A DNA stretch of 64,000 nucleotides. Source: Chthonomonadaceae bacterium (GTDB taxonomy: Bacteria; Armatimonadota; Fimbriimonadia; Fimbriimonadales; Fimbriimonadaceae). A model generated the notes under the pieces. It was not told where the DNA came from. It did not search any database and saw only the letters and a program-made list of their open reading frames with translations. The stretch's first letter is position 1; every line of letters starts with the position of its first letter. A program made the position numbers and the translations under genes. Location of the stretch: positions 186,001 to 250,000 of the forward strand of contig CP054189.1 in NCBI GenBank assembly GCA_015709495.1, in the 5' to 3' direction. Of this stretch, positions 25,687-41,106 are shown one piece after another.

Positions 25687-26204
25687 GGCCCGACCCTCTG
25701 TTCGAGTTCGCCCGCCTGCCACCTTTCGGCGGTCCGGTCGGGCAGTGCGCCCGCGACGAACTTACCCAATCCGCGGTTGGGGTCGATCTCGATCGATTCG
25801 ACCCCCCCATATCCGGTGTCAAATTCGATCCCGCTAGGCGTCGCAGAACCGTCGCCGTAGAACTCGGCAATCCACTCCGAACCTGCCGTGTCTGCGAATC
25901 GGTGGACGAACCTCGTGGCATCGACGGCCTCGGGCAGCTCCACGAACCAGTTGCGCGTATCGCCCTCCCCAAGTTCCGCCACGATCCGCCGGTCGGCGTC
26001 TTCATACCGAAGCGTGAGGGTCGAGGCGGTCTCGATCGCGTGCTCCCGAACGCGTCTCGTGAGCGCCTCGAACTTCATCTTGAACGACCGCCAATCCTCG
26101 CCCGCTCGAACCGCGGTCATCCGCACCACGAGCGCCGTCGCCAGTAGCGCAAGCAACACGACGACGATCGACATTTCGATGTACGTGAATCCGCGCCTAG
26201 TCAA
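25683..26204 (-). CDS. gspH: Type II secretion minor pseudopilin GspH
   Basis: 173 residues from a TTG at 26204, giving MTRRGFTYIEMSIVVVLLAL: the prepilin motif with cleavage after Gly5 and Glu10 at +5. The TTG overlaps the last eight bases of gspG; an in-frame extension to 26300 lies inside gspG and places the signature too deep for a prepilin. The globular part (FKMKFEALTRRVREHAIETAS) fits GspH. It is the fourth gene of the operon in the normal G-H-I-J-K order. Confidence 0.83.
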   Translation of the reverse strand: MTRRGFTYIEMSIVVVLLALLATALVVRMTAVRAGEDWRSFKMKFEALTRRVREHAIETASTLTLRYEDADRRIVAELGEGDTRNWFVELPEAVDATRFVHRFADTAGSEWIAEFYGDGSATPSGIEFDTGYGGVESIEIDPNRGLGKFVAGALPDRTAERWQAGELEQRVGP

Positions 26205-26634
26205 TGCCTTCGATGATGTCGGCGTCGTTGCCTTCGCCGCCTTCGACGCCGTCCGCGCCAAACGAGTAAAGGGCGAACGTGTCATCGCCCAAGAACTCAT
26301 AGTTGTAGGGGCTGCCCCAAGGATCGTTCGGGATTGGGTTGACCGTATAAGGCCCTCGCCAATCGGTCACGTCGGCGGGCTGAGATCGAAGCGCTTCGAG
26401 ACCCTCTTCCGTCGTGGGGTAGCGGCCCGTATCGGTCCGAAACACCTGAAGCAGCTTGCTCACGTTCTGAATGTCGCTCAAAGCCCGTGACCTCTTGGCT
26501 TCGTCCACGCGCGTAAAGTACCTCGGTACGATCATCGCCGCCAAAATGGCCAGAATCAAGATCACGACGAGCAATTCAATGAGAGTAAAGCCCCTCTTCC
26601 GCCCGTTTTGTTGCATACGATTGTTCCATTTCAT
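26197..26634 (-). CDS. gspG: Type II secretion major pseudopilin GspG
   Basis: 145 residues. KRGFTLIELLVVILILAIL is the prepilin signature, with cleavage after Gly15 and Glu20 at +5. The C-terminal domain has the GspG hallmarks GRYPTTEEGLEAL, DWRGPYT, DPWGSPYNYEF and FALYSFGADG, including the calcium-binding loop region. It polymerises into the pseudopilus that pushes substrates through the secretin. ATG at 26634; an internal ATG at residue 7 is also possible. It begins 29 bases after gspF. Confidence 0.95.
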   Translation of the reverse strand: MKWNNRMQQNGRKRGFTLIELLVVILILAILAAMIVPRYFTRVDEAKRSRALSDIQNVSKLLQVFRTDTGRYPTTEEGLEALRSQPADVTDWRGPYTVNPIPNDPWGSPYNYEFLGDDTFALYSFGADGVEGGEGNDADIIEGID

Positions 26635-26663
26635 GGTTCGTTATTTACTCCAACTCTCCCAGA

Positions 26664-27875
26664 TTATTTCACCAAATTCTGCGCTTCGAAGATCGGAAGC
26701 ATGACCGAAAGCACCACAAATCCGACGAATACGCCCATGACGACGACGATGAGCGGCTCGAACATGGCCGTCATCCGCCGGACGCCTGTATCGACCTCAA
26801 AATCTAAGCTGTCGGCGACCCTCGACAGCATTGTGGGGAGGTCCCCGGTCTCTTCGCCGATCGCCACCATGTGGGTCAGCACCGGGGGAAAGGCGCCGGT
26901 CGAAGACATCGCGTGGTGGAGGGCCTCGCCGTCCCGAACTTGAGTCGCTACGTCGTCGGCCACGCTCTGGATGAGTCTATTGCCCGAGGCCATGCCCGAA
27001 AGCCTAAGCGACTCCAAGATCGGCACTCCGCCATAAATCAACGTCGATAAGACGCGAGAAAACCGTGAAATCACGGCCTTCCCTACGATCTTTCCGGCCG
27101 CCGGAAGCCTCAGTAGCACGCGGTCTCTCATGATCGCCCCCTGTTCCGAGAGTACCGCCGCCCGATAAAACACGAACGCGCCGACAACGACGCCTACGAT
27201 GAGCATCCAGTTCGCCGACAAGAAGTCCGTGAAATCCAACAGCAGCCGCGTGCTGGCCGGGAGGTCGGTCCCCAAGTCCTTGAAAACAACCGAAAGCCGG
27301 GGCAACACGAAGGTCAGCAGGAACACGATCACGCCCGCCGCGACGGTGGTCAGGACGGCAGGATAGATCAGGGCAGAGACGATTTGGCTCCGGCGAGTGA
27401 CTTCGCGCTCTTGAAAGTCGGCCAAGCGAGCCGCAACCTCAGCGAACTGGCCGCTCGCCTCACCCGCTCTCAGGGTCTCGGTGAAGATGGGGGAGAAGAA
27501 CTTCGGGAACTTCGCGAGGGCTTGGGAGACCGGAAGGCCGCCGCGCACATCCTCGAGCGCTCCCTCGGCGACTCTCATCAGCGCCGGGCTTTCCGATTGC
27601 TCGCCCACCACCTGGATCGCGCGGTCGAGCGGTAGCCCCGCAGCGGCAAGGTCCGCCAGTCGCCGCGTGAACAGCGCCAAGTCGGCTCGGCTCGCCCTTC
27701 CGGTGATCGCGCGTGGCGCGTCGGGGTGGGTCGGAGCCGACGATTCGCGCAGGTCGAGTACGAATCGGCCCTCGGCAAGGATCGACGAAATCGCGCCGTT
27801 CCGGTCGGGAGCCGTGATCGTGCCCGACACCTTCTTCCCCGAAGGCTCGACCGCGACATAGGAGAACGTCGTCAC
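26664..27875 (-). CDS. gspF: Type II secretion inner-membrane platform protein GspF
   Basis: A 403-residue polytopic protein. The N-terminal SYVAVEPSGKKVSGTI is the conserved GspF opening. Two repeated GspF domains each carry helices and the phrases LAALTRRLADL-like FTRRLADLAAAGLPL and LSTLIYGGVPILESLRL. It closes with MFEPLIVVVMGVFVGFVVLSVMLPIF. It anchors the ATPase GspE to the pseudopilus assembly site. Start is a GTG at 27875. gspE ends 40 bases upstream. Confidence 0.95.
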   Translation of the reverse strand: MTTFSYVAVEPSGKKVSGTITAPDRNGAISSILAEGRFVLDLRESSAPTHPDAPRAITGRASRADLALFTRRLADLAAAGLPLDRAIQVVGEQSESPALMRVAEGALEDVRGGLPVSQALAKFPKFFSPIFTETLRAGEASGQFAEVAARLADFQEREVTRRSQIVSALIYPAVLTTVAAGVIVFLLTFVLPRLSVVFKDLGTDLPASTRLLLDFTDFLSANWMLIVGVVVGAFVFYRAAVLSEQGAIMRDRVLLRLPAAGKIVGKAVISRFSRVLSTLIYGGVPILESLRLSGMASGNRLIQSVADDVATQVRDGEALHHAMSSTGAFPPVLTHMVAIGEETGDLPTMLSRVADSLDFEVDTGVRRMTAMFEPLIVVVMGVFVGFVVLSVMLPIFEAQNLVK

Positions 27876-27915
27876 CGACGCTCACCACCCTGTTCGAACC
27901 GCAACGCGCCCCTCC

Positions 27916-29502
27916 TCAAAACTCCTCTCTCTGGCAGACCCGAAGGACTTCCTCGGGCGTCGTTCGTCCATCGAGGACCGCCAGCTTGCCGTCCCCAAGC
28001 AACGTCCTCATGCCTTGGTTCTTCACCGCATAGTCTTTGATCACGCTCGAAGAAGCGTGTTCGACGGTCATGCGCCGCACGGGTTCGTCAACCACCAAGA
28101 GTTCGAAGACGCCCTGCCGACCCCGAAAGCCGCTTCCGCTGCACTTATCGCAACCCTTTCCCCGCATGAGCTTCGCCGACGCCGCTTCCTTATCGGAGAT
28201 GCCGACCGCTCGCAGAGCCTCCGGCTTTTCTTCGGATGGCTCCGAACAGTGGGGACAGTTCCGGCGGACGAGCCGTTGGGCCAGAACGCCGATCATCGAA
28301 CTCGCCGCAAGGTAGGGCTCGACGCCCATATCGAGCAGCCGCGTGACCGCACCTGCGGCGTCGTTGGTGTGGAGCGTGCTGAACACGAGGTGGCCGGTCA
28401 GAGAGGCGTGAACCGCGATCTCGGCGGTTTCGTAGTCTCGAATCTCACCCACCATAATCACGTCGGGGTCCTGCCGGACGATGCTGCGAAGGCCATTGGC
28501 GAACGAAAGGCCGATGTTGGCGCGAACCTGAATCTGCCCGATGCCGGGGACCTGGTATTCGACCGGGTCTTCGATCGTCAGGATGTTCTTGGAGGGGGAA
28601 TAGATTTCTTGGAGGGCGGCATAGAGCGTCGTGCTCTTTCCCGAGCCGGTCGGTCCGGTGCTCAGGATGATCCCGTAGGGCATTTCGATCACGCGCCGGT
28701 AGCGCTCCAACTGGTCTTTCCGCATCCCAAGCTCTTCGAGCCCAAGCATCGCCGTGCCCTTATCGAGGATGCGCATCACGCCGCGCTCGCCAAACACCGT
28801 GGGCACGATCGAAACGCGAACGTCGATCGCCCTGCCTGCGATCGTGAGCTTGATGCGGCCGTCTTGCGGCAGCCGCCGCTCGGCGATGTTCATTTCCGCG
28901 AGGATTTTGATGCGGGAGATGAGCGCCGCGTGCATCCGTTTCGGAGGCTTCATTACGTCGCGGAGCATTCCATCGACGCGGTAGCGCACCTTCACCTCGC
29001 GCTCATAAGGTTCCACGTGAATGTCGCTCGCGCCGTCCCGAACGGCCTGTGCAAAGATGAGGTTCACCATCTGGACGACCGCGCTTTCGGCGGCCATCTT
29101 TTGGAGGTCCGCAAGATCGACGGTGTCATCGAATTCGGTGGGACCCGCCTCGTCGGAGTGCAGACCGGCCAGCATCCCTTCGAGGAACCTCTCCTCGATC
29201 CTGACGCGGAGGAAGCTGGGGTCGGCGCGAACCGGGCGCACCGGCATTCCCAACAGGATCCCAAGGTCGTCGACGGCGGCGAGAGAGGCCATCGAGGCGA
29301 CTGCGACGATGAGAATCCCCTCTTCGACGTACAACGGCAGAACCTGGTGCTTGAGCGCGAACTCGCCCGGCGCCTTGTCGACGGCCGCAGGGTCGATCTT
29401 GATCGCCTCAAGATCGACATAGACCAGACCGTTTCTGGGGTCGTCGAGCGTCTCGATCGCCCCGTTGGACAGTTGTGGGTTTTCAGGTTCGAAAGTACTC
29501 AT
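27916..29502 (-). CDS. gspE: Type II secretion ATPase GspE
   Basis: 528 residues. An MshE-type N-terminal domain (FALKHQVLPLYVEEGILIVAV) is followed by the secretion ATPase core: Walker A GPTGSGKST, Asp box IEDPVEYQVPGIGQ, Walker B DPDVIMVGEIRDYETAE and His box TGHLVFSTLHTNDA. A tetracysteine zinc site (CPHC and CDKC) lies near the C-terminus. It powers pseudopilus extension. The ATG at 29502 gives MSTFEPENPQ; an upstream in-frame extension reaches into the next gene's leader. It is the first gene of the operon, divergent from the exported protein at 29705. Confidence 0.95.
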   Translation of the reverse strand: MSTFEPENPQLSNGAIETLDDPRNGLVYVDLEAIKIDPAAVDKAPGEFALKHQVLPLYVEEGILIVAVASMASLAAVDDLGILLGMPVRPVRADPSFLRVRIEERFLEGMLAGLHSDEAGPTEFDDTVDLADLQKMAAESAVVQMVNLIFAQAVRDGASDIHVEPYEREVKVRYRVDGMLRDVMKPPKRMHAALISRIKILAEMNIAERRLPQDGRIKLTIAGRAIDVRVSIVPTVFGERGVMRILDKGTAMLGLEELGMRKDQLERYRRVIEMPYGIILSTGPTGSGKSTTLYAALQEIYSPSKNILTIEDPVEYQVPGIGQIQVRANIGLSFANGLRSIVRQDPDVIMVGEIRDYETAEIAVHASLTGHLVFSTLHTNDAAGAVTRLLDMGVEPYLAASSMIGVLAQRLVRRNCPHCSEPSEEKPEALRAVGISDKEAASAKLMRGKGCDKCSGSGFRGRQGVFELLVVDEPVRRMTVEHASSSVIKDYAVKNQGMRTLLGDGKLAVLDGRTTPEEVLRVCQREEF

Positions 29503-29704
29503 TCTCGTTGGGCCAGTTGTCGCCTCAAAGCAGTACGAAGAACTTCCGCAATTCCTCACCCATCCCATGAATTCGTGGGTCGAACGCCCGGTCGTTCCCT
29601 TTTTGCCTGCCAGCGTTCGGCACGAATCGGAGCTCAGACTCGCCGTAACGGGTCCATTCGGCGATACGTCCAGACAACGAGACGACCGGGCAAACGAGGG
29701 AAAG

Positions 29705-30220
29705 ATGCTGTTTCGAGTTCTGTTTTCGTCAATTCTTGCGGCGCTCGGCCTCAGTCAAGAGGTCGAAGTCAAGCCCTACATGACTCTTCGCGGCTCCGAC
29801 AGCAAGGTCGTGACGAGGGAGTACCGTCTCATCTCCTCTCATTCCGAATGGGACGCGCTTTGGCACAGGCACTCTGGGAAACTCGAAACCTCCGAGAAGC
29901 AACGCGGATTCCGAGTCGACTTCAAAGCCTACCGCGTGATCGCGATCTTCCAGGGCAAGGGGTGGAACTCGCGCGGCGTGGTCGGGACGCTCCACGAAAC
30001 AGACGGCGGATTGAGGCTTCGATTCGACGAACTGACCTACCAGACGTTTGGGCCTGACGGCGGCGGCGTGCGGGTTGCGGCGTACGGATTCTTCGTCGTT
30101 CCCAAGTCGTTCGACAGGGTGGTCTTGGAGGAAAACGTTCAGGGAATCATCGGCGATCCGCCCGTATGGAAACCCCGTGGCGCCTTGAGTTTACAGGCCG
30201 CCTCCATCATTCCAAAATAG
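29705..30220 (+). CDS. Exported protein of unknown function
   Basis: 171 residues with a signal peptide (RVLFSSILAALGLSQ) followed by a compact domain: REYRLISSHSEWDALWHRHSG, then FRVDFKAYRVIAIFQGKGWNSRG, then a C-terminal VRVAAYGFFVVPKSFDRVVLEENVQ. This layout (W-D-W, then VIAIFxGxxxNSRG) resembles small protease-complex or copper-binding exported domains, but no family is named with confidence. The ATG at 29705 was chosen over an upstream in-frame start since GAGGGA precedes it and it opens on the signal peptide. It starts the divergent transcript next to gspE. Confidence 0.7.
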   Translation: MLFRVLFSSILAALGLSQEVEVKPYMTLRGSDSKVVTREYRLISSHSEWDALWHRHSGKLETSEKQRGFRVDFKAYRVIAIFQGKGWNSRGVVGTLHETDGGLRLRFDELTYQTFGPDGGGVRVAAYGFFVVPKSFDRVVLEENVQGIIGDPPVWKPRGALSLQAASIIPK

Positions 30221-30305
30221 TCCACTTAGGCGGATCTGGTCCAAGAAAACGCCGATCTGCGCGAGACGGCCGTCTTATGAGTGATTCCACTCGGATGGGT
30301 GATCT

Positions 30306-31946
30306 ATGCTCACGTCAACGTTTCTCTTCGTCGTACTCGGAGTTCAAGCCATGCAAAACCCACAACAGCCCACGATGGGGCTTGGCGCCTTGGCCCGGCC
30401 GCAACCCGGCCGAAGCATGAGGTCTACCTCGACCTTTCGCGAAGGTCCCGATGGGAAGTATCTCCGCACAGCCAAGCCCAAAGGCGACCTCGAAGAAAAG
30501 AGCAACTACGACAACTTCCGGGTTCCGCCGGGCGAGACTCACACGTTGCTCGACGTCGAGGGACCGGGCGTAATCACCCACATCTGGATCACGTTTCTCG
30601 GCCCCGAACCTCAAGGATGGGCGCCGAACGGCTCCGCGTCGCACCAAGATATGCTGCTGAGAATCTACTGGGACGGGAACGAGAAACCCGCGGTCGAGGC
30701 CCCGGTCGGCGATTTCTTCGCAAACGCTTTTGGCAAAAGGAGCGAGGTGATCAGCCTACCGATCATCGTTGAGGACGGCGATTCCTACAACTCGTTCTGG
30801 CACATGCCGTTTCGCAAGTCTGCGCGCGTCGAAATCGTCAACCAAGGGGAGCAAAACATCAACCTGCTGTATTACAACATTGATTGGATCAAGTTGGACT
30901 CTCTCCCCCAAGATACGCCTTATTTCTATGCTCAGTACCGGCAGGAATACCCGGTCGAACAAGGCAAAGATTACCTCGTTCTGGAAACAGAAGGCAAGGG
31001 CCACTTGGTCGGCGTCACTTTGGCCGTCCGCACCCGAAGTCCTTCGTGGTTTGGCGAAGGCGACGAAAAGATCTACATCGACGGCGAGGCCGAGCCCTCG
31101 ATTTGGGGTACCGGCACGGAGGATTACTTCCTTTCTGCATGGGGCCTCAAAACGACCAGCACTCCGTACTTCGGCGTGCCGTATTTCGATCAATGGGGCA
31201 TTGTCGGCGGGCACACGAGCGCGTATCGGTGGCACATCAACGACCCCATCGTGTTTCAAAAGGGCATCAAGGTGACCTTCGAGCACTTTGGGTGGATCTC
31301 TCCCGACGAGAACCCTGACTACAGGTCGATGAGTTGGAACGAGCGACAGGACGATTATTCGAGCGTTGCCTATTGGTATCAGGTCGGCCCTTCGACGTTT
31401 ACCGCAAGAGCGCCTTCGGGAGCGGAACGAAGGCTCCCGCATCTGGAGCGCATCGCGGCTTACGCAAGGGACGGCCACACGCACGGGGCAGGCTCATCGG
31501 CATCCCAGCAGCTTGACCTCTACCCTAAGCCTCAAGTTCTTTACAAGCCCGCTTCGATCGAGGGCGCCTGGATCGAGGTGCCCTTTGAAGTCAAGGTAAA
31601 GGAGCCTTTGCGTTTGCTGCTCAACCTGACTACCTCGTACGACTTCGGACGGTATCAGGCGTACCTGATTCCTCGGGGATCAGAGGATCGTCCAGGAGTC
31701 AAACTGGGGGGAGTAATCGATCTTTATTCCGCCGAGGTCAGAAATCGGGAGGTCCACCTGCTCGACTTCTGGCCGGACCCTGGCAAATACGTTCTTAGGC
31801 TGGAGTGCGTAGGGCGCAATCCGATGTCGGAGGGTTACTTCCTCGGCATCGAATCCGTTCTTCTCCGCGAGCGCCGGCCCAGGGTGCGAGAGATGGGACA
31901 CGATAAGGATAAGGACTGGCGCAAAGATCCGAAGCTGTATGGATAG
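30306..31946 (+). CDS. DUF2961 / GH172-type glycoside hydrolase-like protein
   Basis: 546 residues with an N-terminal signal peptide (MLTSTFLFVVLGVQA). The DUF2961 features are clear: GPGVITHIWITF, LLRIYWDGNEKPAVEAPVGDFFA, FWHMPFRKSARVEIVN, YFYAQYRQEYP, IWGTGTEDYFLSAWG and YRWHINDPIVFQKGIKVTFEH. DUF2961 proteins have been assigned to GH172, which includes D-arabinofuranosidase and difructose-anhydride synthase activities. The substrate here is unknown. A C-terminal beta-domain follows residue 400. With a GH127 enzyme at 58640-60565, furanoside degradation is suggested. Confidence is high for the family and low for the substrate. Confidence 0.9.
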   Translation: MLTSTFLFVVLGVQAMQNPQQPTMGLGALARPQPGRSMRSTSTFREGPDGKYLRTAKPKGDLEEKSNYDNFRVPPGETHTLLDVEGPGVITHIWITFLGPEPQGWAPNGSASHQDMLLRIYWDGNEKPAVEAPVGDFFANAFGKRSEVISLPIIVEDGDSYNSFWHMPFRKSARVEIVNQGEQNINLLYYNIDWIKLDSLPQDTPYFYAQYRQEYPVEQGKDYLVLETEGKGHLVGVTLAVRTRSPSWFGEGDEKIYIDGEAEPSIWGTGTEDYFLSAWGLKTTSTPYFGVPYFDQWGIVGGHTSAYRWHINDPIVFQKGIKVTFEHFGWISPDENPDYRSMSWNERQDDYSSVAYWYQVGPSTFTARAPSGAERRLPHLERIAAYARDGHTHGAGSSASQQLDLYPKPQVLYKPASIEGAWIEVPFEVKVKEPLRLLLNLTTSYDFGRYQAYLIPRGSEDRPGVKLGGVIDLYSAEVRNREVHLLDFWPDPGKYVLRLECVGRNPMSEGYFLGIESVLLRERRPRVREMGHDKDKDWRKDPKLYG

Positions 31947-32488
31947 AGATCGCCAGAGCCAGCCGCGACCGCACGCCCTAAGTGCGAGAACTCTTCCCGG
32001 AAACATCTGAGTGTCCCTGCAGTTGTCAGCGAGTTGAGCATCGAAAGGGGGCCGATCCCACAAGGCTTGTGGGGTGCCTCATCACGGCTTATCCGCGCGC
32101 ACTTGCCGACCGCCCTCCGTTCCTTCTCGGGAGGACCTGATGGACAAGAAGGGCAACAGCATGGTAACTGCAAACCAAAGCCCGCCGCGGCCTTGGAGGC
32201 CCAGACACTTACAATGACGGAATTGCCAAGACGATGCAGACCCCGTATTTTTACCAGTTTGCCCCCACCACCACCATAGCGATCGAGATTCTGTCCTATA
32301 CTGGGGAAGGTACCGACAGCCAACACCAGTTCTTTCTGCAATGTGACGATTGGCCCGTGCTACCGAGCAGGCGAAGGCGAAGGGAGCATGTTTTGGGCAA
32401 CAGCGAACAACCGTCGGAAGTAGCACGAGCCAACGAAACCCGTTTTGGGTCTCACCGTGGAACTCACGTACTCATTCCACTGGTGGTG
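31947..32488. other. Gene-poor stretch before the redox cassette
   Basis: About 540 bases with no convincing gene. An open frame from the ATG at 32234, with TACAAT 18 bases before it (32210-32215), joins the thioredoxin-like gene in frame but encodes an Arg-rich, unlikely-looking N-terminus. This may be an upstream extension or decayed sequence. Base composition is less GC-rich from here to about 34.5 kb. Confidence 0.4.
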
Positions 32489-32950
32489 ATGTACACCCTT
32501 ATGCGAGTAAACGCGGCGACTGTTGTACCGCGACTTCAAGAAACCTACCGTCCAAAGGATCCTCCGATGCCTGCGCTGATGTCGACCGTCAACGACATCT
32601 CCATTGGAACGCCAGCTCTCCCGGAACTCGCAGAATTCGGCTTTCCGCTGAAAGTAGTGGTGCATATCGATTGCCTGAGTTGCACGACTCGGCCGCTCGA
32701 ACCCATCCGAGACCTGTTCCGACGTAACGACATCCTCAATGTCGTCGCTTCGGAAGATTACGACGTTTATACGTCCTTCGCTGCCGAGAATCCAACTTCG
32801 AAGGTCTTGTTTTCGACACCGGCGTTCGCAAAACGCGTGAATGCGGCGTTCGGACCGCGAGTTTATGTGTATGATGCAAACGGGCGACTCCAATACCTTC
32901 AAAGAGTCCCCTCCGACGTAGGAACCGTCCTCGATGAAAGCAACCGCTAA
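32489..32950 (+). CDS. Thioredoxin-like protein with a CLSC motif
   Basis: About 153 residues from the ATG at 32489; GTGs at 32483 and 32486 or the ATG at 32234 could be the true start. The N-terminal part LIPLVVMYTLMRVNAATVVPR spans the start and looks like a membrane anchor. The core is thioredoxin-like: PLKVVVHIDCLSCTTRPLEPI, with a CxxC pair, and RVYVYDANGRLQYLQRVPSD, the usual late strand-turn of TlpA/redoxin proteins. It probably reduces or oxidises cysteines outside the cytoplasm. It overlaps the next membrane gene by 17 bases. It is the first gene of a four-gene cassette. Confidence 0.6.
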   Translation: MYTLMRVNAATVVPRLQETYRPKDPPMPALMSTVNDISIGTPALPELAEFGFPLKVVVHIDCLSCTTRPLEPIRDLFRRNDILNVVASEDYDVYTSFAAENPTSKVLFSTPAFAKRVNAAFGPRVYVYDANGRLQYLQRVPSDVGTVLDESNR

Positions 32951-33551
32951 CCGTCGAATCAGTGACCGCGTTGCAGGATCAATACCCGCCGGACTGGCTG
33001 CCGCGCTTGTCGTTGGACCCGTTACGTTGTTGACGATCGCAGAATGCCTCTTTCGCGACCTGCATCGCTTCATTCTAGCTCAAGGCCCTGGTATGTCTGG
33101 CTACCTGATTTGGCTGCCAGTTGTCCTTACTACGCTCCTAGTTGGCTCCATTACCATGGTCTCCTTCCAGTTCGGTCGCGACGGATACCTTTCCATTGCC
33201 GCCGGTTATGCGATAGCCGCAGTCGCGGTGACCCACTCGCGAGGATCTCACATTTGGCCAGGACTCTTTGATTTCTCAACGCTTAGCGCTGGGCCCATAC
33301 TCTTAGCCACAGGTCTAAGCATCCTTCTGGGAGCTACCGGAGCCGTGATCTTTAGGGTTCGCCCAGGTCTTCGCGCTACAACCCTCCTCACGCTATTCCT
33401 TGCGGTACTGGCCGTCGCATGGACTTGGATACACCACTTGACGGACGGGGGCCCCTACAGCGCATTTGTCTACTCCCGCCACATCATAATGAGCATTGCG
33501 TTCGCGTTGTCCGCAGGAACCTTTCTGGCTACGAAGGAGGATTTCGAATGA
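32934..33551 (+). CDS. Polytopic membrane protein of unknown function
   Basis: 205 residues with about six predicted membrane segments (GLAAALVVGPVTLLTIAE; LIWLPVVLTTLLVGSITMV; LSIAAGYAIAAVAV; ILLATGLSILLGATGAVIF; TLLTLFLAVLAVAWTWI; IIMSIAFALSAGTFLA). No family is recognised. Its ATG is inside the end of the thioredoxin-like gene and its stop overlaps the prepilin start (ATGA), so the three are one transcript. A role as electron-supplying or scaffold partner is conceivable but unsupported by cysteines: only one is present. Confidence 0.7.
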   Translation: MKATANRRISDRVAGSIPAGLAAALVVGPVTLLTIAECLFRDLHRFILAQGPGMSGYLIWLPVVLTTLLVGSITMVSFQFGRDGYLSIAAGYAIAAVAVTHSRGSHIWPGLFDFSTLSAGPILLATGLSILLGATGAVIFRVRPGLRATTLLTLFLAVLAVAWTWIHHLTDGGPYSAFVYSRHIIMSIAFALSAGTFLATKEDFE

Positions 33552-34081
33552 AGCGCAAACTATCGGGTTTTACGATTGTCGAGGTTATGGTGGTCGTCGC
33601 TATTATTGCGATTCTCGTGACTATTCTGATGCCGGTTTTGCAGGGGGCTAGGAAATCTTCGAGCAAGGTTGTTTGCGCGAGCAATATGCATCAGATATAC
33701 GCGGCGATGAAGCTGTACGAAGCGGATTATGGCGACTACCCTCCTGGCTCCGTAGTCTGGCCCGCGTTCCAACCCTATTATCCTACGGTCCTAATCTGTC
33801 CTGCTGGTACTCTCTCACCACGAGGCGAATTTGACTACATAATGGCAGGCAACCCGCTTGACTTGCTTCCGGGATACAACGAGGCTCTTCGAGAATGCAA
33901 GTACATTCGGGGTGGGCTGTTTCCGGTCGTGCGTGACCACAATCACATGGTCAAAACGAATGCCATGCACCCAGAGTCTTGGCTTTATCTCGTCAGAGAG
34001 AACGGGGCATTCTCAGTGGTAAGACCAAAGCTGCTGGATGGTCCCTGTAAGTCTATAGTAGGTTTTGACAGCAACTTATAG
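33548..34081 (+). CDS. Lone type IV prepilin-like protein
   Basis: 177 residues. MKRKLSGFTIVEVMVVVAII is a prepilin signature (cleavage after Gly7, Glu12 at +5). After the hydrophobic helix, GARKSSSKVVCASNMHQIYAAMKLYEADYGDYPPG matches the pseudopilin/DUF1559-like head common in planctomycete and armatimonad prepilins. A strong AAGGAGG (33534-33540) precedes the ATG at 33548. The globular part is short and lacks the GspG calcium loop. It is not part of the type II secretion operon and may depend on its machinery. Confidence 0.85.
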   Translation: MKRKLSGFTIVEVMVVVAIIAILVTILMPVLQGARKSSSKVVCASNMHQIYAAMKLYEADYGDYPPGSVVWPAFQPYYPTVLICPAGTLSPRGEFDYIMAGNPLDLLPGYNEALRECKYIRGGLFPVVRDHNHMVKTNAMHPESWLYLVRENGAFSVVRPKLLDGPCKSIVGFDSNL

Positions 34082-34095
34082 ATAGGAGACAGAAG

Positions 34096-34452
34096 ATGAA
34101 AGTAAACAAAAGCGCATACGTGACGATTGTTGCGTTCGGAGCCTTCGTGTTTGCGAGTGCTCTGCCATTCTGCAAGTACGATGATCCGATTGTATCTTAT
34201 GGTGGAGTATCTGCGACATGCCGGCAAATCACCACCTCCCCTCCCCCAGGCTCAGTTCCGCTTGCGAATTGTACGTACCAGTGGTGCAATCTGGAGTGGC
34301 CGTGTAGTCAGACAAAGCAGGTAATGTCCCGAATTAAGGACATTTACTATCATCCGTCGATCAGTCCACACTTGTTTGTAGGCAACGTTACTGACGTTGC
34401 GGAAAGTGGATGGTGCTGCAACTGCGTCATGCCTCCCGTTACTCCTTTGTAG
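34096..34452 (+). CDS. Cysteine-rich exported protein
   Basis: 118 residues with a signal peptide (TIVAFGAFVFASALPFC) and eight cysteines: Cys26, 42, 59, 64, 70, 107, 108 and 110, the last three in WCCNCVMPP. No family is recognised. The even number and spacing suggest a small disulfide-stabilised or metal-binding exported protein. TAGGAGA lies 9 bases before the ATG at 34096. It ends the cassette with the thioredoxin-like, membrane and prepilin genes. It is followed by 200 bases and then the insertion sequence. Confidence 0.65.
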   Translation: MKVNKSAYVTIVAFGAFVFASALPFCKYDDPIVSYGGVSATCRQITTSPPPGSVPLANCTYQWCNLEWPCSQTKQVMSRIKDIYYHPSISPHLFVGNVTDVAESGWCCNCVMPPVTPL

Positions 34453-34628
34453 CACTGGTACCTCCAGCTTTCTCGGACCGGTCCGTTAGCCTTTTGAACT
34501 CCGAATGCTTTCGGGAAGGCTTATAGCCCCAGTTGAGCGTCTAATGGCGTCGGTACCGGATTGCAGCTCTGACTAATGGAGGGTTGATCCTTCGGTGCGC
34601 CCGAGTTTCCTGACCGCTCCAAGAGGGC

Positions 34629-35861
34629 TCAAAGAGGCCTCGCGCTGAGAAGTGTTTTGGCTCCTCGCTGTTTGGTGTGGGTAGCGGGTCGTAGCTTTCC
34701 GTGCAGCAGGTAGCTCATGGCGATGAGGTTTTGAGGGTTGCTGTAGCCTCGCGCTTTGTTTTTGGCTGCCTGCAGAACGCTGTGGAGGCCTTCCAGGAAT
34801 CCGTTGGAGATTCGGGTTTCGAACCACCTCAAGATCTTGTCCGCCGCATTGAAGAAGGTGACGGCGACCTCGACGACGGCGTGGATATCTGAGGCGAGGG
34901 CCATGCCGATCCACTCGTAGAATGCGGTCTGCGCCTGGCATCTGGGGACTTTGAAGAGTTCCTGGAAAGCCAGTCTGAGACCGTAGGCTTTTCCGGTGAG
35001 GGGAAAGGCGTTCTCTTCCAGAAGCTCTTGGAGGCTCAGCTTCTCTTTCTCTGAGAGGTTGGTTGGGTTCTTGAGCCAGAGCCAGCGGGTTCGTTTGAAC
35101 TTCGTCGCCTTCTTGGTTTCGGCTTTTCTCGTTTCATCGACCGCCCTTGTCAGAAGGGCCACAAGGTGGTAGCGGTCGAGCGTCACGCTTGCTTGGGGGA
35201 AGGCCTGCGCGATGCCGCCAAGGAACGCCGGTCCCATGTCGCAGGTGAAGGCCTGCACCTTGGCGGGGTCCGCGCCTTTGGCCTTGAGGAACGCTTTGAA
35301 CTCGAAAAGGGCAGAACCGCTTCTCCCCTGGCAGGCATACAGAACGCGCCGGGCATCCAAGTCCACGAAGACCGTGATGTAGTCGTGGCCGCGCCTTGCC
35401 GCCGTCTCGTCCACCCCGATCCTTGTCGGCTGGCCGATGCCCAGGGCGTCTCGGGTTCGCTTCACGTATTGATGGATGAGCCGCCAGAGCCGGGTGTCAG
35501 ACAGTCTCAGGAGCCTGGCCGCCGGCGCCACAGGCATCTGGGAAACGAGCTCGATCGCATGCGCTTCAAAGTCCATCGTGAAGCCGCTGCCCGCATGGGC
35601 CCAGGGAACCTGAACCGTGGCCACCTTCCCGTCCTTGCCGATGACCCGAGGCACCCTGGCATGAATGAAGCACGGATACTTGAAGAAGTTTAGGTGCCGC
35701 CACTTCCGCTCGGAAGTGTCGTGAACCTCAAGCCCGCCAAACCTGGCCCCGCGTTCAAAGTCCACCTTGATGTGAACCTCACCGTCAATGAACTCGATGT
35801 CCACGATCTTCCAAGGGGGCGTTAGCCCAAGGCCAAGAGCAAATAACTCGGTCGGTTGCAT
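34629..35861 (-). CDS. ISL3-family transposase
   Basis: 410 residues. DDE-type catalytic residues are visible: RIGVDETAARRGHDYITVFVD, TCDMGPAFLGGIAQAFPQA and the Glu region NGFLEGLHSVLQAAKNK, with the DRYHLVALLTRAVDE helix. An N-terminal zinc-binding-like region and a helix-turn-helix (RLLRLSDTRLWRLIHQYVK) precede it. The ATG at 35861 follows a TAATCT box by 6 bases. The reading frame leaves the element at 34659 without a stop and ends at 34629-34631, so the last nine residues (KTLLSARPL) are encoded by the target duplication and flank. Confidence 0.95.
   Translation of the reverse strand: MQPTELFALGLGLTPPWKIVDIEFIDGEVHIKVDFERGARFGGLEVHDTSERKWRHLNFFKYPCFIHARVPRVIGKDGKVATVQVPWAHAGSGFTMDFEAHAIELVSQMPVAPAARLLRLSDTRLWRLIHQYVKRTRDALGIGQPTRIGVDETAARRGHDYITVFVDLDARRVLYACQGRSGSALFEFKAFLKAKGADPAKVQAFTCDMGPAFLGGIAQAFPQASVTLDRYHLVALLTRAVDETRKAETKKATKFKRTRWLWLKNPTNLSEKEKLSLQELLEENAFPLTGKAYGLRLAFQELFKVPRCQAQTAFYEWIGMALASDIHAVVEVAVTFFNAADKILRWFETRISNGFLEGLHSVLQAAKNKARGYSNPQNLIAMSYLLHGKLRPATHTKQRGAKTLLSARPL
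34659..34682 (+). repeat. Left terminal inverted repeat of the ISL3 element
   Basis: 24 bases starting GGCTCCTCGCTG, perfect complement of the right end. It also codes for transposase residues THTKQRGA in the last codons inside the element. Confidence 0.95.
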
Positions 35862-35867
35862 CCCATC

Positions 35868-35873
35868 AGATTA
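35868..35873 (-). promoter_or_regulatory. -10 box of the transposase gene
   Basis: TAATCT on the minus strand ends 6 bases before the transposase ATG, a leaderless layout like many host genes here. It lies inside the element next to the right inverted repeat, a usual place for a promoter that is weak until insertion. Confidence 0.5.
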
Positions 35874-35878
35874 CGCCA

Positions 35879-35902
35879 ACCCACACCAAACAGCGAGGAG
35901 CC
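35879..35902 (-). repeat. Right terminal inverted repeat of the ISL3 element
   Basis: The exact reverse complement of the left end, ending in AGGAGCC and followed by AGTGTTTT. Confidence 0.95.
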
Positions 35903-35910
35903 AGTGTTTT

Positions 35911-36345
35911 TCGGCAACCCACTTCTGGCAAGCCTTCACTCCGCGAGCAGGCAGGCCCCTGCGCTGGGCGCCGCCCCCACTCCAATTGCCCTAACGCAGA
36001 TATCCATTCGAGTCGCCTCCGCGGGCCTACATTTTCGAGCGCAGCTTTCGGGCTCGCTGGTTCCGTTTGACACGCTGGTTTATCGCGCCCCGATTCATGG
36101 CTCCCTCCCCCTGCCTGTTTCCCAGGCGCAGCCAGTCCGAGGAAGGGGCCGAACTGCACCCGACCGGGAATGAGAAACACGCGCTGGGGACGAACTCCGG
36201 CCAGATCGAGTGCGCCGATGCCATAATTGGGCTACCCGAGTTGGGTTGCCGCTGTTTCCCGCCACCGGGGACCCGATGCGGGGGAAAACGATTTTCAGTT
36301 GTTGAGGCTCTCACCTCTCAAACCCACAAACAGGAAGGCGAAATC
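35911..36345. other. Gene-free flank right of the insertion sequence
   Basis: 435 bases without a convincing gene. Short frames run through on both strands but show no recognised motif. A GGAAGG ribosome site at 36332-36337 belongs to the next gene. Confidence 0.4.
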
Positions 36346-37500
36346 ATGAACTGGAAGGACCGAATGACTCGCGACGAACTCGATCGAATTCGAAGCGCGA
36401 AGGCCGAGCGTCTCGTCAGCCTTTACTTACCTACGGCCCGCGCTGGGCGGGAGACCCTCCAGGGGCCGATCTACCTCAAGAACCTCCTCACCCAAGCCGA
36501 GCAAGAGCTTTCTGAACTTGGCCTGAGGTGGAATGAGATCGAAGAAGTCCTCGGAGCGGCACGGGCTCTCTTGGACGACGACCACATCTGGGTCCACGCC
36601 TCCGACGGCTTTGCGATTTTCCTCTCGCCAGGACAGGCCGAGGGGTATCGACTCCCTGTCGGATTTGAAGAGAAGTGCGTCGTGGGCACGAGGTTTCATA
36701 TCAAGCCGCTCTTGCCCTACTTTGCCAAAGACGGCGCGTTCTATGTTCTCACTCTCAGCGAAAACCTCGTTCAGATGTATCTGGCGACCCGTCACCAAAT
36801 TCACACGCTCGAAGTCCCTGAGATGCCGACCAGCATGGCGGAGGCGCTCGCCGCACACGATCCGGAGTCGCAACTCCAGTTTCACACCTCCGCTGGGTCC
36901 GGCGGCGCAGGCGGGCGGGCGGCCATGTTTTTTGGCACGGGCGACGAGACCGGGATGAACAAGCAGAAGAAGGAGTTGCGGGAATACTTCGAGCGCGTCG
37001 ATAGAGCCGTGACCCGATATGCCAACTCTGCGCCCCTTCCTCTGATCCTCGGAGGAGTCGACTACCTTTTGCCGATCTACCGCAAGACCAACGAATTCCC
37101 AGGGTTGATCGACCCTCAGTTCGAAGGCAACTACGACCGTTCGACCCCCGAGGAGGTTCTGGAAAAAGCCTGGGAGCAAATCGCTCCCGTGTTCGCTCAG
37201 AGTCGGAAGAACGCGGAGGCCAAGTTCGCCGAGTTGAACGGAACCGGGCTCGCGTCCGCCGCTCTCGATGAGGTCGTCGCGCGGAGCTTCGAAGGCAGGG
37301 TGGATACGTTGTTCGTGGCTCTCGACCGCGAAGTCGCCGGTGAGTTCGACACCGAACAGCACGCGGTTCAGTTGGGGGGCTCCGAGGACCTCACCGACCT
37401 CTGCGCCGTGCAGACCTTGTCGCAAGGCGGCGCGGTGTACGCCCTTCCTGCGGCGGAAATGCCTGGACGGGGCGAACTGGCCGCGATCTACCGGTACTAA
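36346..37500 (+). CDS. baeRF family 3-like protein (release-factor superfamily)
   Basis: 384 residues. The sequence LVSLYLPTARAGRETLQGPIYLKNLLTQAEQEL, then WVHASDGFAIFLSP and HIKPLLPYFAKDGAFYVLTLSENLVQMYLA, matches bacterial homologues of archaeal/eukaryotic peptide chain release factor eRF1 (baeRF3). A central glycine-rich loop (AGSGGAGGRA) and a C-terminal Rossmann-type half (PLILGGVDYLLPIYRKTN) follow. Roles in ribosome rescue are proposed, not shown. GGAAGG precedes the ATG at 36346. It ends seven bases before the convergent Rossmann gene. Confidence 0.85.
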   Translation: MNWKDRMTRDELDRIRSAKAERLVSLYLPTARAGRETLQGPIYLKNLLTQAEQELSELGLRWNEIEEVLGAARALLDDDHIWVHASDGFAIFLSPGQAEGYRLPVGFEEKCVVGTRFHIKPLLPYFAKDGAFYVLTLSENLVQMYLATRHQIHTLEVPEMPTSMAEALAAHDPESQLQFHTSAGSGGAGGRAAMFFGTGDETGMNKQKKELREYFERVDRAVTRYANSAPLPLILGGVDYLLPIYRKTNEFPGLIDPQFEGNYDRSTPEEVLEKAWEQIAPVFAQSRKNAEAKFAELNGTGLASAALDEVVARSFEGRVDTLFVALDREVAGEFDTEQHAVQLGGSEDLTDLCAVQTLSQGGAVYALPAAEMPGRGELAAIYRY

Positions 37501-37507
37501 GAGGCGA

Positions 37508-38134
37508 TCACTGCGCGCCGTCCAGCCACCTGAGGAAGGGTGAGCGTCTGTACGCTTGGATGAGCTCGAAAACAGGCTCGTCGCCCCTCACCCATCTAAG
37601 CACCTGGTGCGCTAGCCGTCCGTCGTGATCGTCGATCCAGGCCTTCGGCCAGTCGATCCGGCTGTGCTTCAGCCCAGGCAAAAGCACCTCGCTTGGCAGC
37701 AGGCTCAAGACGAGCGGCGTCCCCTCTTTCGATGCCGTGCTCATAAGGTGCGCGTGCAGGTAAGCGACCGCTTGCTCGATCGAAGCTCCATCGGTGCAGG
37801 TCGCCTCCACCCCTGCCCAACGGTTGACCATCCGAGCCGACCGGGCGTTTGCGCAGTACACAACCCTTGTAAAGTCGCCCGCAAGTTCGTCCAACGAATC
37901 CGTCACGGCCAGAGCGTGCTCTGCTTTCGCGCACGTGAACACCGTTTGGGCAAGCCGGAACGCCAAGTCGACCTTCTCACTGTCAGGATCGAACAGCGTC
38001 AGGGTCATCGGCCGCTCGCCGAAGTAGCTACTCAGCGACGCCAACACAGGTACCGACACCGCCAGATGTCCCGCACCGATCAAAGCGACGTGTCCGTGCC
38101 CCATCTTTACTATGTGACGACCTGAAGCGAGCAT
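37508..38134 (-). CDS. Rossmann-fold protein of unknown function
   Basis: About 208 residues from the ATG at 38134, which follows AGAGGA; an ATG at 38104 is also possible. It opens on a Rossmann strand-loop VALIGAGHLAVSVPVLASL, then TLTLFDPDSEKVDLAFRLAQ with an acidic residue after strand 2. This suggests NAD(P) or nucleotide binding and resembles family-4 glycosidase openings, though the characteristic metal motif is not seen. The gene is divergent from the DUF5695-like gene with only 30 bases between their starts. Confidence 0.6.
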   Translation of the reverse strand: MLASGRHIVKMGHGHVALIGAGHLAVSVPVLASLSSYFGERPMTLTLFDPDSEKVDLAFRLAQTVFTCAKAEHALAVTDSLDELAGDFTRVVYCANARSARMVNRWAGVEATCTDGASIEQAVAYLHAHLMSTASKEGTPLVLSLLPSEVLLPGLKHSRIDWPKAWIDDHDGRLAHQVLRWVRGDEPVFELIQAYRRSPFLRWLDGAQ

Positions 38135-38146
38135 CCATTCCTCTGG

Positions 38147-38152
38147 TAATAT
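38147..38152 (+). promoter_or_regulatory. -10 box of the DUF5695-like gene
   Basis: TAATAT ends 12 bases before the ATG at 38165. It sits between two divergent starts only 30 bases apart. Confidence 0.4.
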
Positions 38153-38164
38153 CCCTGCGCCCCC

Positions 38165-40714
38165 ATGGAAGACCCGTTCGATCGCGTCGACCTTACGACG
38201 TCCTATCTGTCGATCGAGTTCGGCACAGGCGGTCGGATGCTCCGACTGTGGGCCGGAGACCCTGACCTGCCGGAAGAGGGCGAAGAGTTCCAATTCTCAT
38301 TGAACCCGCTCACGTTCGGCGAGGAGGCATCGGATAGGTACCTCCCAGGCTCGATTCTGCTCGGGGCACGGTTGCGTCCCGACGAACCGTGGGTATTGGA
38401 CCGGAATCAAAGCGCGACGCCGCACGAGGAACTCGACAACGCCCAAGTTGAGTTCGAGTACGAGTTCGGATTGCTGCCGGAACTCCGGGTGACAGGTCGG
38501 TTCTATGAGGTTCGAGGTCCGAGGTCGTACCTGGTGTGGGACGTAAGGGTAGCCAACCGGGGCCGCGTCAGCGTGGAGATTGGGGAACTCGCGTTTCCAT
38601 TTGCGCTCATCAACGTGTTCGAGGGCGCGCGGGGGATGGATTCCTCGGGCAAAGGCATGGCCAACGACCGCGTCCGGATTCACCGGCACGCAGGGGGCGC
38701 GGGAAGCTACCTGTTTGCGACGAGGCTCAGCGGCGAATCCCCAAGCCTCTGCATCTTTCCCGGCGAAGACACCACGTGGGACCTAATCAGCAGCGTTCCG
38801 GGGTCACTTTCGACCCCGCTCAGGTGGCCGGGCATCCCCGTCGTCTATCTCCTGAGCCGGGCCGCAGTCGAACGAGAGGGTTGGAGCGAGTGGCAGAGCA
38901 ACCCGCAATCCCTTATCCTCGAACCCGGAGACTCTCGAACCTTTCAAACGTGTTTCGCTACTTCGAGCGCCGACCCGGGGGACGGGCTCCAGCAACTTCT
39001 CAGCCAGTGCGGCCAACCCTCCATGCGCGTGCTTCCTTCCGCGGTCGTGCCGGCTTCCGTAGGGGTCGCGATCGAGGTCACTGGGCCGGAGGTGGCCGAG
39101 TTCTATGCGAGCACCCCGGCCTCGGTGGAATCTGACACCGACGAAAACGGAGGGTTCTGCTTCGTCAAGCCGCGTTCCCCCGGCCCTTGCCGCGTGCTTG
39201 AACGAGACGTCAAGGGCAGGCTCGCCCACGCCGACGTGCTGTTCCTTGAGCCCATCGATAGCCTGATCAAGAAGCGGGCGCAATGGATCGCGAGCCGCCA
39301 GGTTCACCACGGCCCCGACACTGTGCTTCATAAAGCGATCGTGCCCACCCACATCAAAACGGGGCAGCAGGTCACGGGGCACGACGAATTCACGAGGCCT
39401 TTCACGGTCGAATCGTGCCTGAGCGACGCGCTCTTTTTGGCCGAAAAGAACACCTTGTACCCAGACGCTCGGGAAATCGAAATCGTCGAGGCATTTGTGG
39501 AGGAGTTCGTTCTCGACGACCTCCAAAACCCAGGCACGTTCGCCGTCGGCTCGGCGTTCCCCGACCTCTTTTCAGCGTCGACGAACTTCCGCAACTCGCA
39601 CTCGTATGTGCTTCTCACACTCCTCTACGACTCACTCGGCCGATGCGCTGGGACCGGCGCCCCGCTTCAGCGGCCACCCGAGTTCTACCTCGATCTCGCG
39701 GTTCGGACGCTCCAAGCCCTGTTCCAATACGATTTGATTCCGTCCAGGGGGCTAAGATGGCTCGATGCGCTCGTTTCGAGACTCGAGGGCTTAGGGCAGG
39801 GAGACCTCGCGCTCAGCCTGAAGCAGGAACTGGACCACACCGCCCATCAGATTCTTCGCAACGCGCTTGCCGACCTCGTGGAGTTTGGCTGGGAGCCGAC
39901 GGTCCCGGATCGCATCGGGTGGGCCGCCAGCAGGCTTGCGGACACCTACGTCGAAGAACTCTGCCTGTACGTTTCGGCGACCGCGCGCTCGCTTGCGCCC
40001 GACTGGAAAACCTACTGCGCCGACCAGCGCCTTCCGATCGAAACTCGCTTCGCCTCCGGACCCACCCAGCTCGATCGCGCCGAACTCTCGTTGGGCTACT
40101 CGACCGTCGCGAACTCGCTTCGCCTTCTGGATGGGGTGCTGGGGGGCGCGTATGAAGCGGCCGACTCCTTGCTTCGGATGGCGTTCGGAGGCATCATCGC
40201 CCCCTGGGGTCTCGTCCGAGAGGACGGAAGCGCGTCGATGGGCGTGTGCAACGACCCCGCGTCGAGACAACGGGGATTCGCGCCTTACAGTGGAGACATC
40301 GGGTTTACGCTTTACGAGTACCTGCGCGGCGCAGCCACCTACGTCCTTCCCCACCCAGGCTACGGAGTGTTTTCGTTTGGTGGGCAGTTCGCAGTCGATG
40401 AGGTTGGGTACGCGATCCGACCGTGGGACGGCTTGGGACGCCGAATTCACATGGGTCAGCTAGGGTGCGATTTGAATTGCGATTACGGGAGGATCCTCGA
40501 AGCCAACGTCGACGCAAGGAAGCGCCACGCCACCGTCAGGGTCGAAAACCCCAGCCCGTTCCCAACGACTTGCACGCTGACGGTAGCCGGCCTTTGGGGG
40601 AGCCTGTTCGATGTGGGCGGCAAGGAAATCGGACTTACAGAAGGGGCGCTCCGCCACTGGCTCGACCTTCCGCCTTCAGGTATTGTGGAGGTCGAAATCC
40701 GGGTGAAGCCATGA
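38165..40714 (+). CDS. DUF5695-like carbohydrate-active protein
   Basis: 849 residues without an evident signal peptide. An N-terminal beta-sandwich (residues 1-320) begins TTSYLSIEFGTGGRMLRLW, and an alpha/alpha-barrel half (about 360-770) contains IVEAFVEEFVLDDLQNPGTFAVGSAF (in part) and ALFQYDLIPSRGLRWLDAL. This matches the DUF5695 group of carbohydrate-active proteins as remembered; the family call is by eye. Two short acidic motifs could be catalytic but none is certain. Its stop overlaps the next gene (ATGA). Confidence 0.65.
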   Translation: MEDPFDRVDLTTSYLSIEFGTGGRMLRLWAGDPDLPEEGEEFQFSLNPLTFGEEASDRYLPGSILLGARLRPDEPWVLDRNQSATPHEELDNAQVEFEYEFGLLPELRVTGRFYEVRGPRSYLVWDVRVANRGRVSVEIGELAFPFALINVFEGARGMDSSGKGMANDRVRIHRHAGGAGSYLFATRLSGESPSLCIFPGEDTTWDLISSVPGSLSTPLRWPGIPVVYLLSRAAVEREGWSEWQSNPQSLILEPGDSRTFQTCFATSSADPGDGLQQLLSQCGQPSMRVLPSAVVPASVGVAIEVTGPEVAEFYASTPASVESDTDENGGFCFVKPRSPGPCRVLERDVKGRLAHADVLFLEPIDSLIKKRAQWIASRQVHHGPDTVLHKAIVPTHIKTGQQVTGHDEFTRPFTVESCLSDALFLAEKNTLYPDAREIEIVEAFVEEFVLDDLQNPGTFAVGSAFPDLFSASTNFRNSHSYVLLTLLYDSLGRCAGTGAPLQRPPEFYLDLAVRTLQALFQYDLIPSRGLRWLDALVSRLEGLGQGDLALSLKQELDHTAHQILRNALADLVEFGWEPTVPDRIGWAASRLADTYVEELCLYVSATARSLAPDWKTYCADQRLPIETRFASGPTQLDRAELSLGYSTVANSLRLLDGVLGGAYEAADSLLRMAFGGIIAPWGLVREDGSASMGVCNDPASRQRGFAPYSGDIGFTLYEYLRGAATYVLPHPGYGVFSFGGQFAVDEVGYAIRPWDGLGRRIHMGQLGCDLNCDYGRILEANVDARKRHATVRVENPSPFPTTCTLTVAGLWGSLFDVGGKEIGLTEGALRHWLDLPPSGIVEVEIRVKP

Positions 40715-41106
40715 ACGAAATACCTACTTGGTGGCTGGTGATATCGGGCGCTTTCTTTGGGATCGGAGTGCTGGCGTTTCTTGCCATGACGGCGCTTTTC
40801 CTCAGGCTGAGCGCGGTCGTCAACGAACTCAAGCCGAAAGTCGACAACATCAGCGCCAAGGTCGAGGCCCTCACGGCCAACCTGGAGTCAACTTCGGCGC
40901 AGGCGAAGTCGACGATCACCACGGTGGGCTCGGGAACGGCGAACATCGTGCGGTCCGTGGAAACCGCGCTCGTGGGTTCGGCTAAGCGGCTGGAGGGCTT
41001 TGCGACGGTGATGTTCACCGCCCTTTCGATCCTGAAGCTGGTGAGGGAGTTTCAGGCCGTCCGCGGCAAGCCTCACGTTGACAGCTCGAAGCCCGACGGG
41101 GTATAG
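40711..41106 (+). CDS. Small membrane protein with a coiled-coil
   Basis: 131 residues. An N-terminal transmembrane helix (LVISGAFFGIGVLAFLAMTALFL) is followed by heptad-rich sequence VVNELKPKVDNISAKVEALTANLES, resembling DUF948/YtxH-type small envelope proteins. The ATG overlaps the DUF5695-like stop. The initiator tRNA starts 14 bases after the stop, in the same orientation. Confidence 0.7.
   Translation: MNEIPTWWLVISGAFFGIGVLAFLAMTALFLRLSAVVNELKPKVDNISAKVEALTANLESTSAQAKSTITTVGSGTANIVRSVETALVGSAKRLEGFATVMFTALSILKLVREFQAVRGKPHVDSSKPDGV

Follow-up and report, generated by a model that had tools for sequence, protein, structure and literature searches.

What does a tight group of four genes, encoding a thioredoxin-like protein, a membrane protein, a lone prepilin and a secreted cysteine-rich protein beside an insertion sequence (IS), represent in an Armatimonadota genome: a functional unit, or unrelated genes gathered by chance? 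The window analysed here is a stretch of 64,000 nucleotides (G000:C1:186001-250000) from a genome of 2.9 Mb. The arrangement given in the preliminary description was fully re-found from the open reading frames (Table 1): the first three genes overlap by 17 and by 4 bases, a 14-base gap precedes the fourth, the CLSC motif is present in the thioredoxin-like protein (hereafter redoxin) and eight cysteines are counted in the ORF at 34096-34452. The lower GC content remarked on there is equally real. The block 31962-34657 is compositionally foreign, with 54.1% GC against 60.6% for the whole window, a value found as low in 7 of 614 equally sized sliding windows, and the four genes have GC3 values of 0.55-0.58 against 0.70-0.75 in three flanking genes. 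The start of the redoxin, first placed at ATG 32489, is probably the in-frame TTG at 32393, which is preceded by a Shine-Dalgarno-like AAGGGAG and adds a membrane anchor; this N-terminal anchor resembles that of many redoxin relatives. The overlaps suggest that the four genes may be read as a single transcript, as had been proposed; promoter and terminator scans gave matches no more frequent than in shuffled sequence.

Table 1. Features of the cassette and its surroundings, in window positions
Feature	Position	Strand	Remarks
Redoxin-type thioredoxin-like protein	32393..32950	+	CLSC; FGPRVY (probable cis-Pro) motif; probable TTG start
Multi-pass membrane protein (TM protein)	32934..33551	+	Motif RGxxIWPG; only in type-1 cassettes
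Prepilin	33548..34081	+	Class III signal peptide G-FTIVE; Shine-Dalgarno AAGGAGG
Secreted Cys-rich protein	34096..34452	+	118 aa, 8 Cys; Sec-type signal peptide ..FVFASA-LPF.., by eye
ISL3-family IS	34659..35902	-	25-nt perfect inverted repeats; 8-bp target duplication AGTGTTTT; cassette neighbour only
Block missing in same-species genome	31962..35934		Contains cassette and IS; 18 bp there instead

The IS beside the cassette is real and belongs to the ISL3 family (transposase ORF 34629-35861). Since it is flanked by an 8-bp duplication of its own, it is independent of the cassette and not its carrier, and we reject the cassette as IS cargo; the four genes lie outside the IS ends at 34659 and 35902. 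Further along the window, at 36205-37497 (+), lies a gene for a bacterial archaeo-eukaryotic release factor-like protein (baeRF family 3/7).

Do these genes belong together elsewhere? Single-sequence searches of 85 family genomes found matches to the redoxin, the TM protein and the prepilin adjoining one another in other genomes, and in the first set of loci a small secreted Cys-rich gene stood 3' of the prepilin wherever the contig went on. The genes are a conserved cassette. The same four-gene order, with the multi-TM gene between redoxin and prepilin, is a rare form, which we call type 1, but nine intact loci of it exist: in the window, G007, G072 (two, in tandem), G094, G080, G099, G097 and G042. 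The G097 locus is closely similar to that of G099; G075 carries the type-1 genes with a broken redoxin frame, and the type-1 locus of G013 is decayed. The profile of the TM protein matches at least 10 of 291 genomes of the phylum and that of the redoxin at least 73, these and the other tallies being lower bounds because the searches score the best candidates per genome (in G000 the best 12 of 29, missing its second cassette).

The window cassette is thus named as the type-1 form of a recurring accessory cassette of Armatimonadota, whose core consists of a prepilin gene and, immediately 3' of it, the gene for a small disulfide-rich secreted protein; a membrane-anchored redoxin is in most cases encoded 5' of the two. 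The commoner type 2 lacks the multi-TM gene and often has, after the Cys-rich gene, one for a single-TM extracytoplasmic protein. Pairs of prepilin and Cys-rich genes without a detectable redoxin gene also exist; these pairs, together with the optional character of the multi-TM gene, make the prepilin and Cys-rich genes the tightest unit and the redoxin its usual companion. Several variants were observed on the way. An extra small thioredoxin-like gene with a CGCxxC or CCCxxC motif, absent from the window, lies directly 5' of the redoxin in G094, G099, G023, G042 and G044 (L059:9795-10202, L063:10815-11231, L065:791-1144, L111 and L124). L213 (G062:C1:4785000-4789500) holds a complete redoxin, prepilin, Cys-rich and membrane protein set, L156 has TM and prepilin genes with neither a redoxin nor a recognisable Cys-rich ORF, and in L214 and L218 the prepilin, Cys-rich and single-TM genes are followed directly by another prepilin, a layout that suggests tandem arrays.

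How constant is the association? Forty redoxin loci were taken from the best-scoring places of the redoxin profile by score alone. A prepilin or its homologue lies downstream in 34 of them, and a secreted ORF on the same strand, with six or more Cys and a start no more than 1.9 kb downstream, in 27. Over all 54 redoxin loci the counts are 45 and 36, respectively; the first 14 loci were partly chosen by synteny, and the forward set of 40 and the reverse sets of 20 and 14 given below are the fairer tests. Controls were low: upstream of the redoxin, a prepilin was found in 1 of 46 loci and a Cys-rich ORF in 2 of 47, one of these being the tandem cassette's own gene, and on the opposite strand a Cys-rich ORF occurred in 4 of 54. 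Among the loci that failed the count are some at contig ends (L065, L075, L120, L145), some below the cut-offs with the gene visible by eye (L057, L060, L063, L138), two with a stop or frame break in the Cys-rich gene (L137, L135) and some from which the gene is absent (L115, L141-L143); L115 (G050:C47) retains the redoxin, the prepilin and the single-TM gene.

The association holds in reverse. The type-2 Cys-rich profile, built from 24 rows, matches at least 43 places in 35 of the 291 genomes. Twenty of its places, outside the loci already tallied (the set includes L203-L205, which are also redoxin-profile matches, and L206, on the contig of L112), have a prepilin directly upstream in 14 cases and a same-strand redoxin in 8, one of them downstream. 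Starting from the single-TM protein, whose profile matches at least 130 of 291 genomes, 14 places hand-picked from a longer list (a fifteenth, L222, of 1,325 bp, was excluded) were compared: 13 have a prepilin, in 10 the Cys-rich gene lies between it and the TM gene, and 8 have a same-strand redoxin, which precedes the prepilin in seven. The test of whether the Cys-rich gene is conserved together with the redoxin and prepilin genes is strongly positive in both directions, for loci that are not phylogenetically independent, with profiles built from cassette members and with one locus, L108, overlapping an earlier one, L070. The earlier cassette reading is partly supported; the IS is unrelated to the cassette and the multi-TM gene is optional.

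The window redoxin matches no Pfam family at E<=1; in a broader set, 14 of 31 relatives match Pfam Redoxin and 6 match AhpC-TSA at E<=0.1, and the redoxin profile finds the thioredoxin-like protein 2m72 in the PDB (E 7.8e-4). C62, P123 and R124 are invariant in a 13-row alignment (A1), the window protein having CLSC and GPRVY at these motifs, and several redoxins lack one cysteine of the CxxC pair (G007, with CLSS, L122 and L140). The AlphaFold model of the redoxin (pLDDT 40) has a low-confidence b-a-b-a-b-a-b-b order that fits the thioredoxin fold; the models, with pLDDT of 40 and 37, are too weak to use. Shared with Redoxin/AhpC-TSA/TlpA-type proteins are the CxxC motif, this predicted order and the Redoxin matches, and we take the cassette redoxin to resemble the TlpA type. 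It differs from them in its 'xPRxY' motif, in place of which many relatives have 'TPT', in a CxxC that is often CxC or a single Cys, and in its recurrence with a prepilin. A search of the plasmid collection with the redoxin of L118 gave no match.

The TM protein has no Pfam family, and its alignment (A5) holds no conserved Cys. We rejected a relay of the DsbB/VKOR/DsbD type on these grounds, no Pfam match to those families being found. The prepilin is confirmed: Pfam N_methyl (E 7.8e-07) and TIGR02532 match above their cut-offs, and the GspG (E 1e-09) and ComGC (E 5.7e-08) models match below their curated cut-offs. It shares the N-terminal motif and hydrophobic helix with the (pseudo)pilins of type II secretion and type IV pili (T2SS/T4P; GspG, ComGC, DUF1559-type prepilins). 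Unlike them, it stands alone without assembly machinery and is tied to a Cys-rich protein and usually a redoxin, and some of its cassette homologues lack the cleavage motif. The motif is found in 40 of 45 pilin-like partners; since the remaining 5 are without it, pilus assembly cannot hold for every cassette. The Cys-rich gene is kept beside four of these five (L068, L074, L109 and L124, not L119). The window genome has one prepilin peptidase (PF01478) and an assembly ATPase; the gene of this type II/IV secretion ATPase (T2SSE and MshEN) lies at 27919-29568 (-) in the conserved flank, some 2.9 kb away from the cassette.

No family in Pfam, NCBIfam or PADLOC matches the window Cys-rich protein, and neither do the plasmid and phage collections; the type-2 set has no PDB match, and the Cys-rich proteins scanned gave isolated chance-level matches only (Pfam, NCBIfam, PADLOC, PDB). 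Eight Cys columns of the type-2 proteins are invariant or nearly so, and 36 of 42 rows have an even number of cysteines after the signal peptide (33 of 38 once four duplicates are left out), as expected for fully paired disulfides. The question of whether homologues keep their cysteines has a clear answer in both closely compared pairs, which retain all that they share: 8 of 8 in the tandem copies, at 57% identity, and 9 of 9 in the conspecific pair. A comparison of the type-1 with the type-2 Cys-rich proteins does not support homology between them, the hhalign probability being 53% over 16 columns. The single-TM protein has no confident family, with weak NTF2-type hints (TcaA_5th, E 0.052).

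Within one species the cassettes show strong turnover. In the same-species genome G094, window positions 26000-31961 find a match at 99% identity and 35935-41000 at 97%, and where the window has 3,973 bp between these flanks G094 has 18 bp, which makes the cassette a presence/absence block. Conversely, G000 has no DNA corresponding to the type-1 cassette of G094 or to the first of its type-2 cassettes. The sole cassette locus found common to both is a second, type-2 cassette of G000 with redoxin, prepilin, Cys-rich and single-TM genes (L192:1608-3734; G000:C1:1410607-1412733). Its alleles are strongly diverged, with 71-87% identity over about 2 kb coinciding with the cassette, in flanks of mostly 93-99%; dS is about 1 and dN/dS 0.08-0.24 where estimable. 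The pattern suggests that whole, divergent alleles are exchanged while purifying selection acts on them, and does not suggest point diversification.

Some features of the DNA around these loci may be recorded here. The type-2 cassette of G094 in L068 (G094:C1:250000-266000) sits at a rearrangement point, its flanks mapping to G000:374533-380718 and 1413060-1420113 and its edges being rich in short repeats. A repeat-rich frame (ETHAFLGPRLRGRTLQGPC...) adjoins a G094 cassette at L059:6272-7597, and repeated DNA near it also matches several places in G000. The G000 stretch that replaces the type-1 cassette of G094 encodes a HicB-like antitoxin (PF15919, E 2.3e-08; L183:3500-3800, near G000:C1:2291500).

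Is the cassette a known system under another guise? In the Verru_Chthon cassette (TIGR02596/02598/02599) of a different bacterial group, prepilin genes likewise recur as part of a cassette; its definition includes, to our knowledge, no redoxin or Cys-rich partner, and the window prepilin matches its models in the N-terminal stretch only, far below the cut-off. Known anti-phage defence was rejected, as none of the four window proteins has a PADLOC match; one chance-level match (Cas8f, E 0.053) concerns the single-TM protein of L192. Inspection of the cassette neighbours by eye revealed no recurring RiPP-like modification enzyme. No system described in the papers and family libraries searched matches the recurring gene set; a contig scan with one degenerate motif, the form that the search outside the phylum took, returned three loci, all from Armatimonadetes. 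The single superfamilies are known, and against these libraries and papers we regard the cassette as new as a system.

What could such a system do? Gene order and co-conservation establish it as a system, and its chemistry we infer. The preliminary description suggested that the cassette could make, fold and export a disulfide-stabilised protein, and it may do so. Our preferred reading, to which we assign a probability of about one half, is that the disulfide-rich secreted protein is folded by a redoxin dedicated to it and either acts together with its partner pseudopilin or depends on it for export or display. The Cys-rich protein would leave the cytoplasm through Sec, as its signal peptide implies, and the redoxin would form or shuffle its disulfides in the envelope. 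The prepilin, cut by the genome's prepilin peptidase, would join the cell's pilus or type II machinery, where it may serve the Cys-rich protein as a dedicated partner in export or display.

Turnover between strains speaks for a role at the surface or in competition more than for housekeeping, and there are two alternatives of this kind. The Cys-rich protein may stay attached to the cell, at its surface or on the pilus, and serve as a variable tip or adhesin; turnover would then reflect selection by phages, predators or attachment partners and not the release of an exoprotein. We consider this a tentative possibility: the prepilin is the most constant neighbour, alleles diverge and cassettes come and go within a species, and pili of Fimbriimonas are thought to serve attachment according to PMC4072686, but the Cys-rich gene persists beside most of the motif-less partners, and nothing found supports a pilus location of its product. 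Alternatively, the Cys-rich protein could be an antibacterial agent delivered through the pseudopilin in competition or self-recognition, with the single-TM (type 2) or multi-TM (type 1) protein as its immunity protein or receptor, a role we judge rather unlikely. Strain-specific content with one common, strongly diverged locus in G000 and G094, the multi-copy occurrence, a membrane protein accompanying many cassettes and the NTF2-like hints for the single-TM protein would all fit it. Yet the cassette proteins show no toxin, immunity or adhesin signature and resemble no known toxin or defence family, the low within-pair dN/dS is not diversifying, and the membrane gene is placed differently in the two types. 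The fullest form of this idea, a phylum-wide, strain-polymorphic system in which a one-gene 'private' pseudopilin and a dedicated redoxin secrete or display one disulfide-rich protein for competition or self-recognition between close relatives, the membrane protein being receptor or immunity, is likewise doubtful.

The other alternatives fare worse. A redox-stress or metal-binding module, pairing the redoxin with a thiol-rich scavenger, could draw on the Redoxin/AhpC-TSA similarity and the many cysteines; it is improbable, as the secretion signals, the constant prepilin partner and the mostly even Cys numbers argue for structural disulfides and not free thiols. In the MauD/MauE/MauA system, dedicated thioredoxin-like and membrane proteins accompany a small disulfide-rich protein, and the cassette might by analogy serve the maturation of an enzyme subunit that is rich in disulfides and carries a protein-derived cofactor. 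PMC7794033 speculates that MauE acts in disulfide formation. We regard such a role as highly improbable and reject identity with the Mau proteins: the cassette has a prepilin in place of enzyme genes and no sequence match to them, no MauE or methylamine-dehydrogenase light-chain Pfam match appears at E<=1 in the window, TM and Cys-rich sets, the TM protein has no conserved Cys, and no large subunit is among the recurring neighbours. Chance assembly of unrelated genes brought by the IS, to which the adjoining element and the low GC might point, deserves next to no credence, being already refuted by co-conservation, with identical order in nine intact type-1 loci, a related order across the phylum and an IS bearing its own target duplication.

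The recurrence of the cassette bears on a wider peculiarity of the phylum. Prepilin genes number in the tens in Armatimonadota genomes, an excess for which we know of no explanation. For Fimbriimonas ginsengisoli, PMC4072686 gives 79 of the PulG type. The recurrent, private pairing of a prepilin with a disulfide-rich protein leads to the hypothesis that some of these surplus prepilins may be cargo- or partner-specific.
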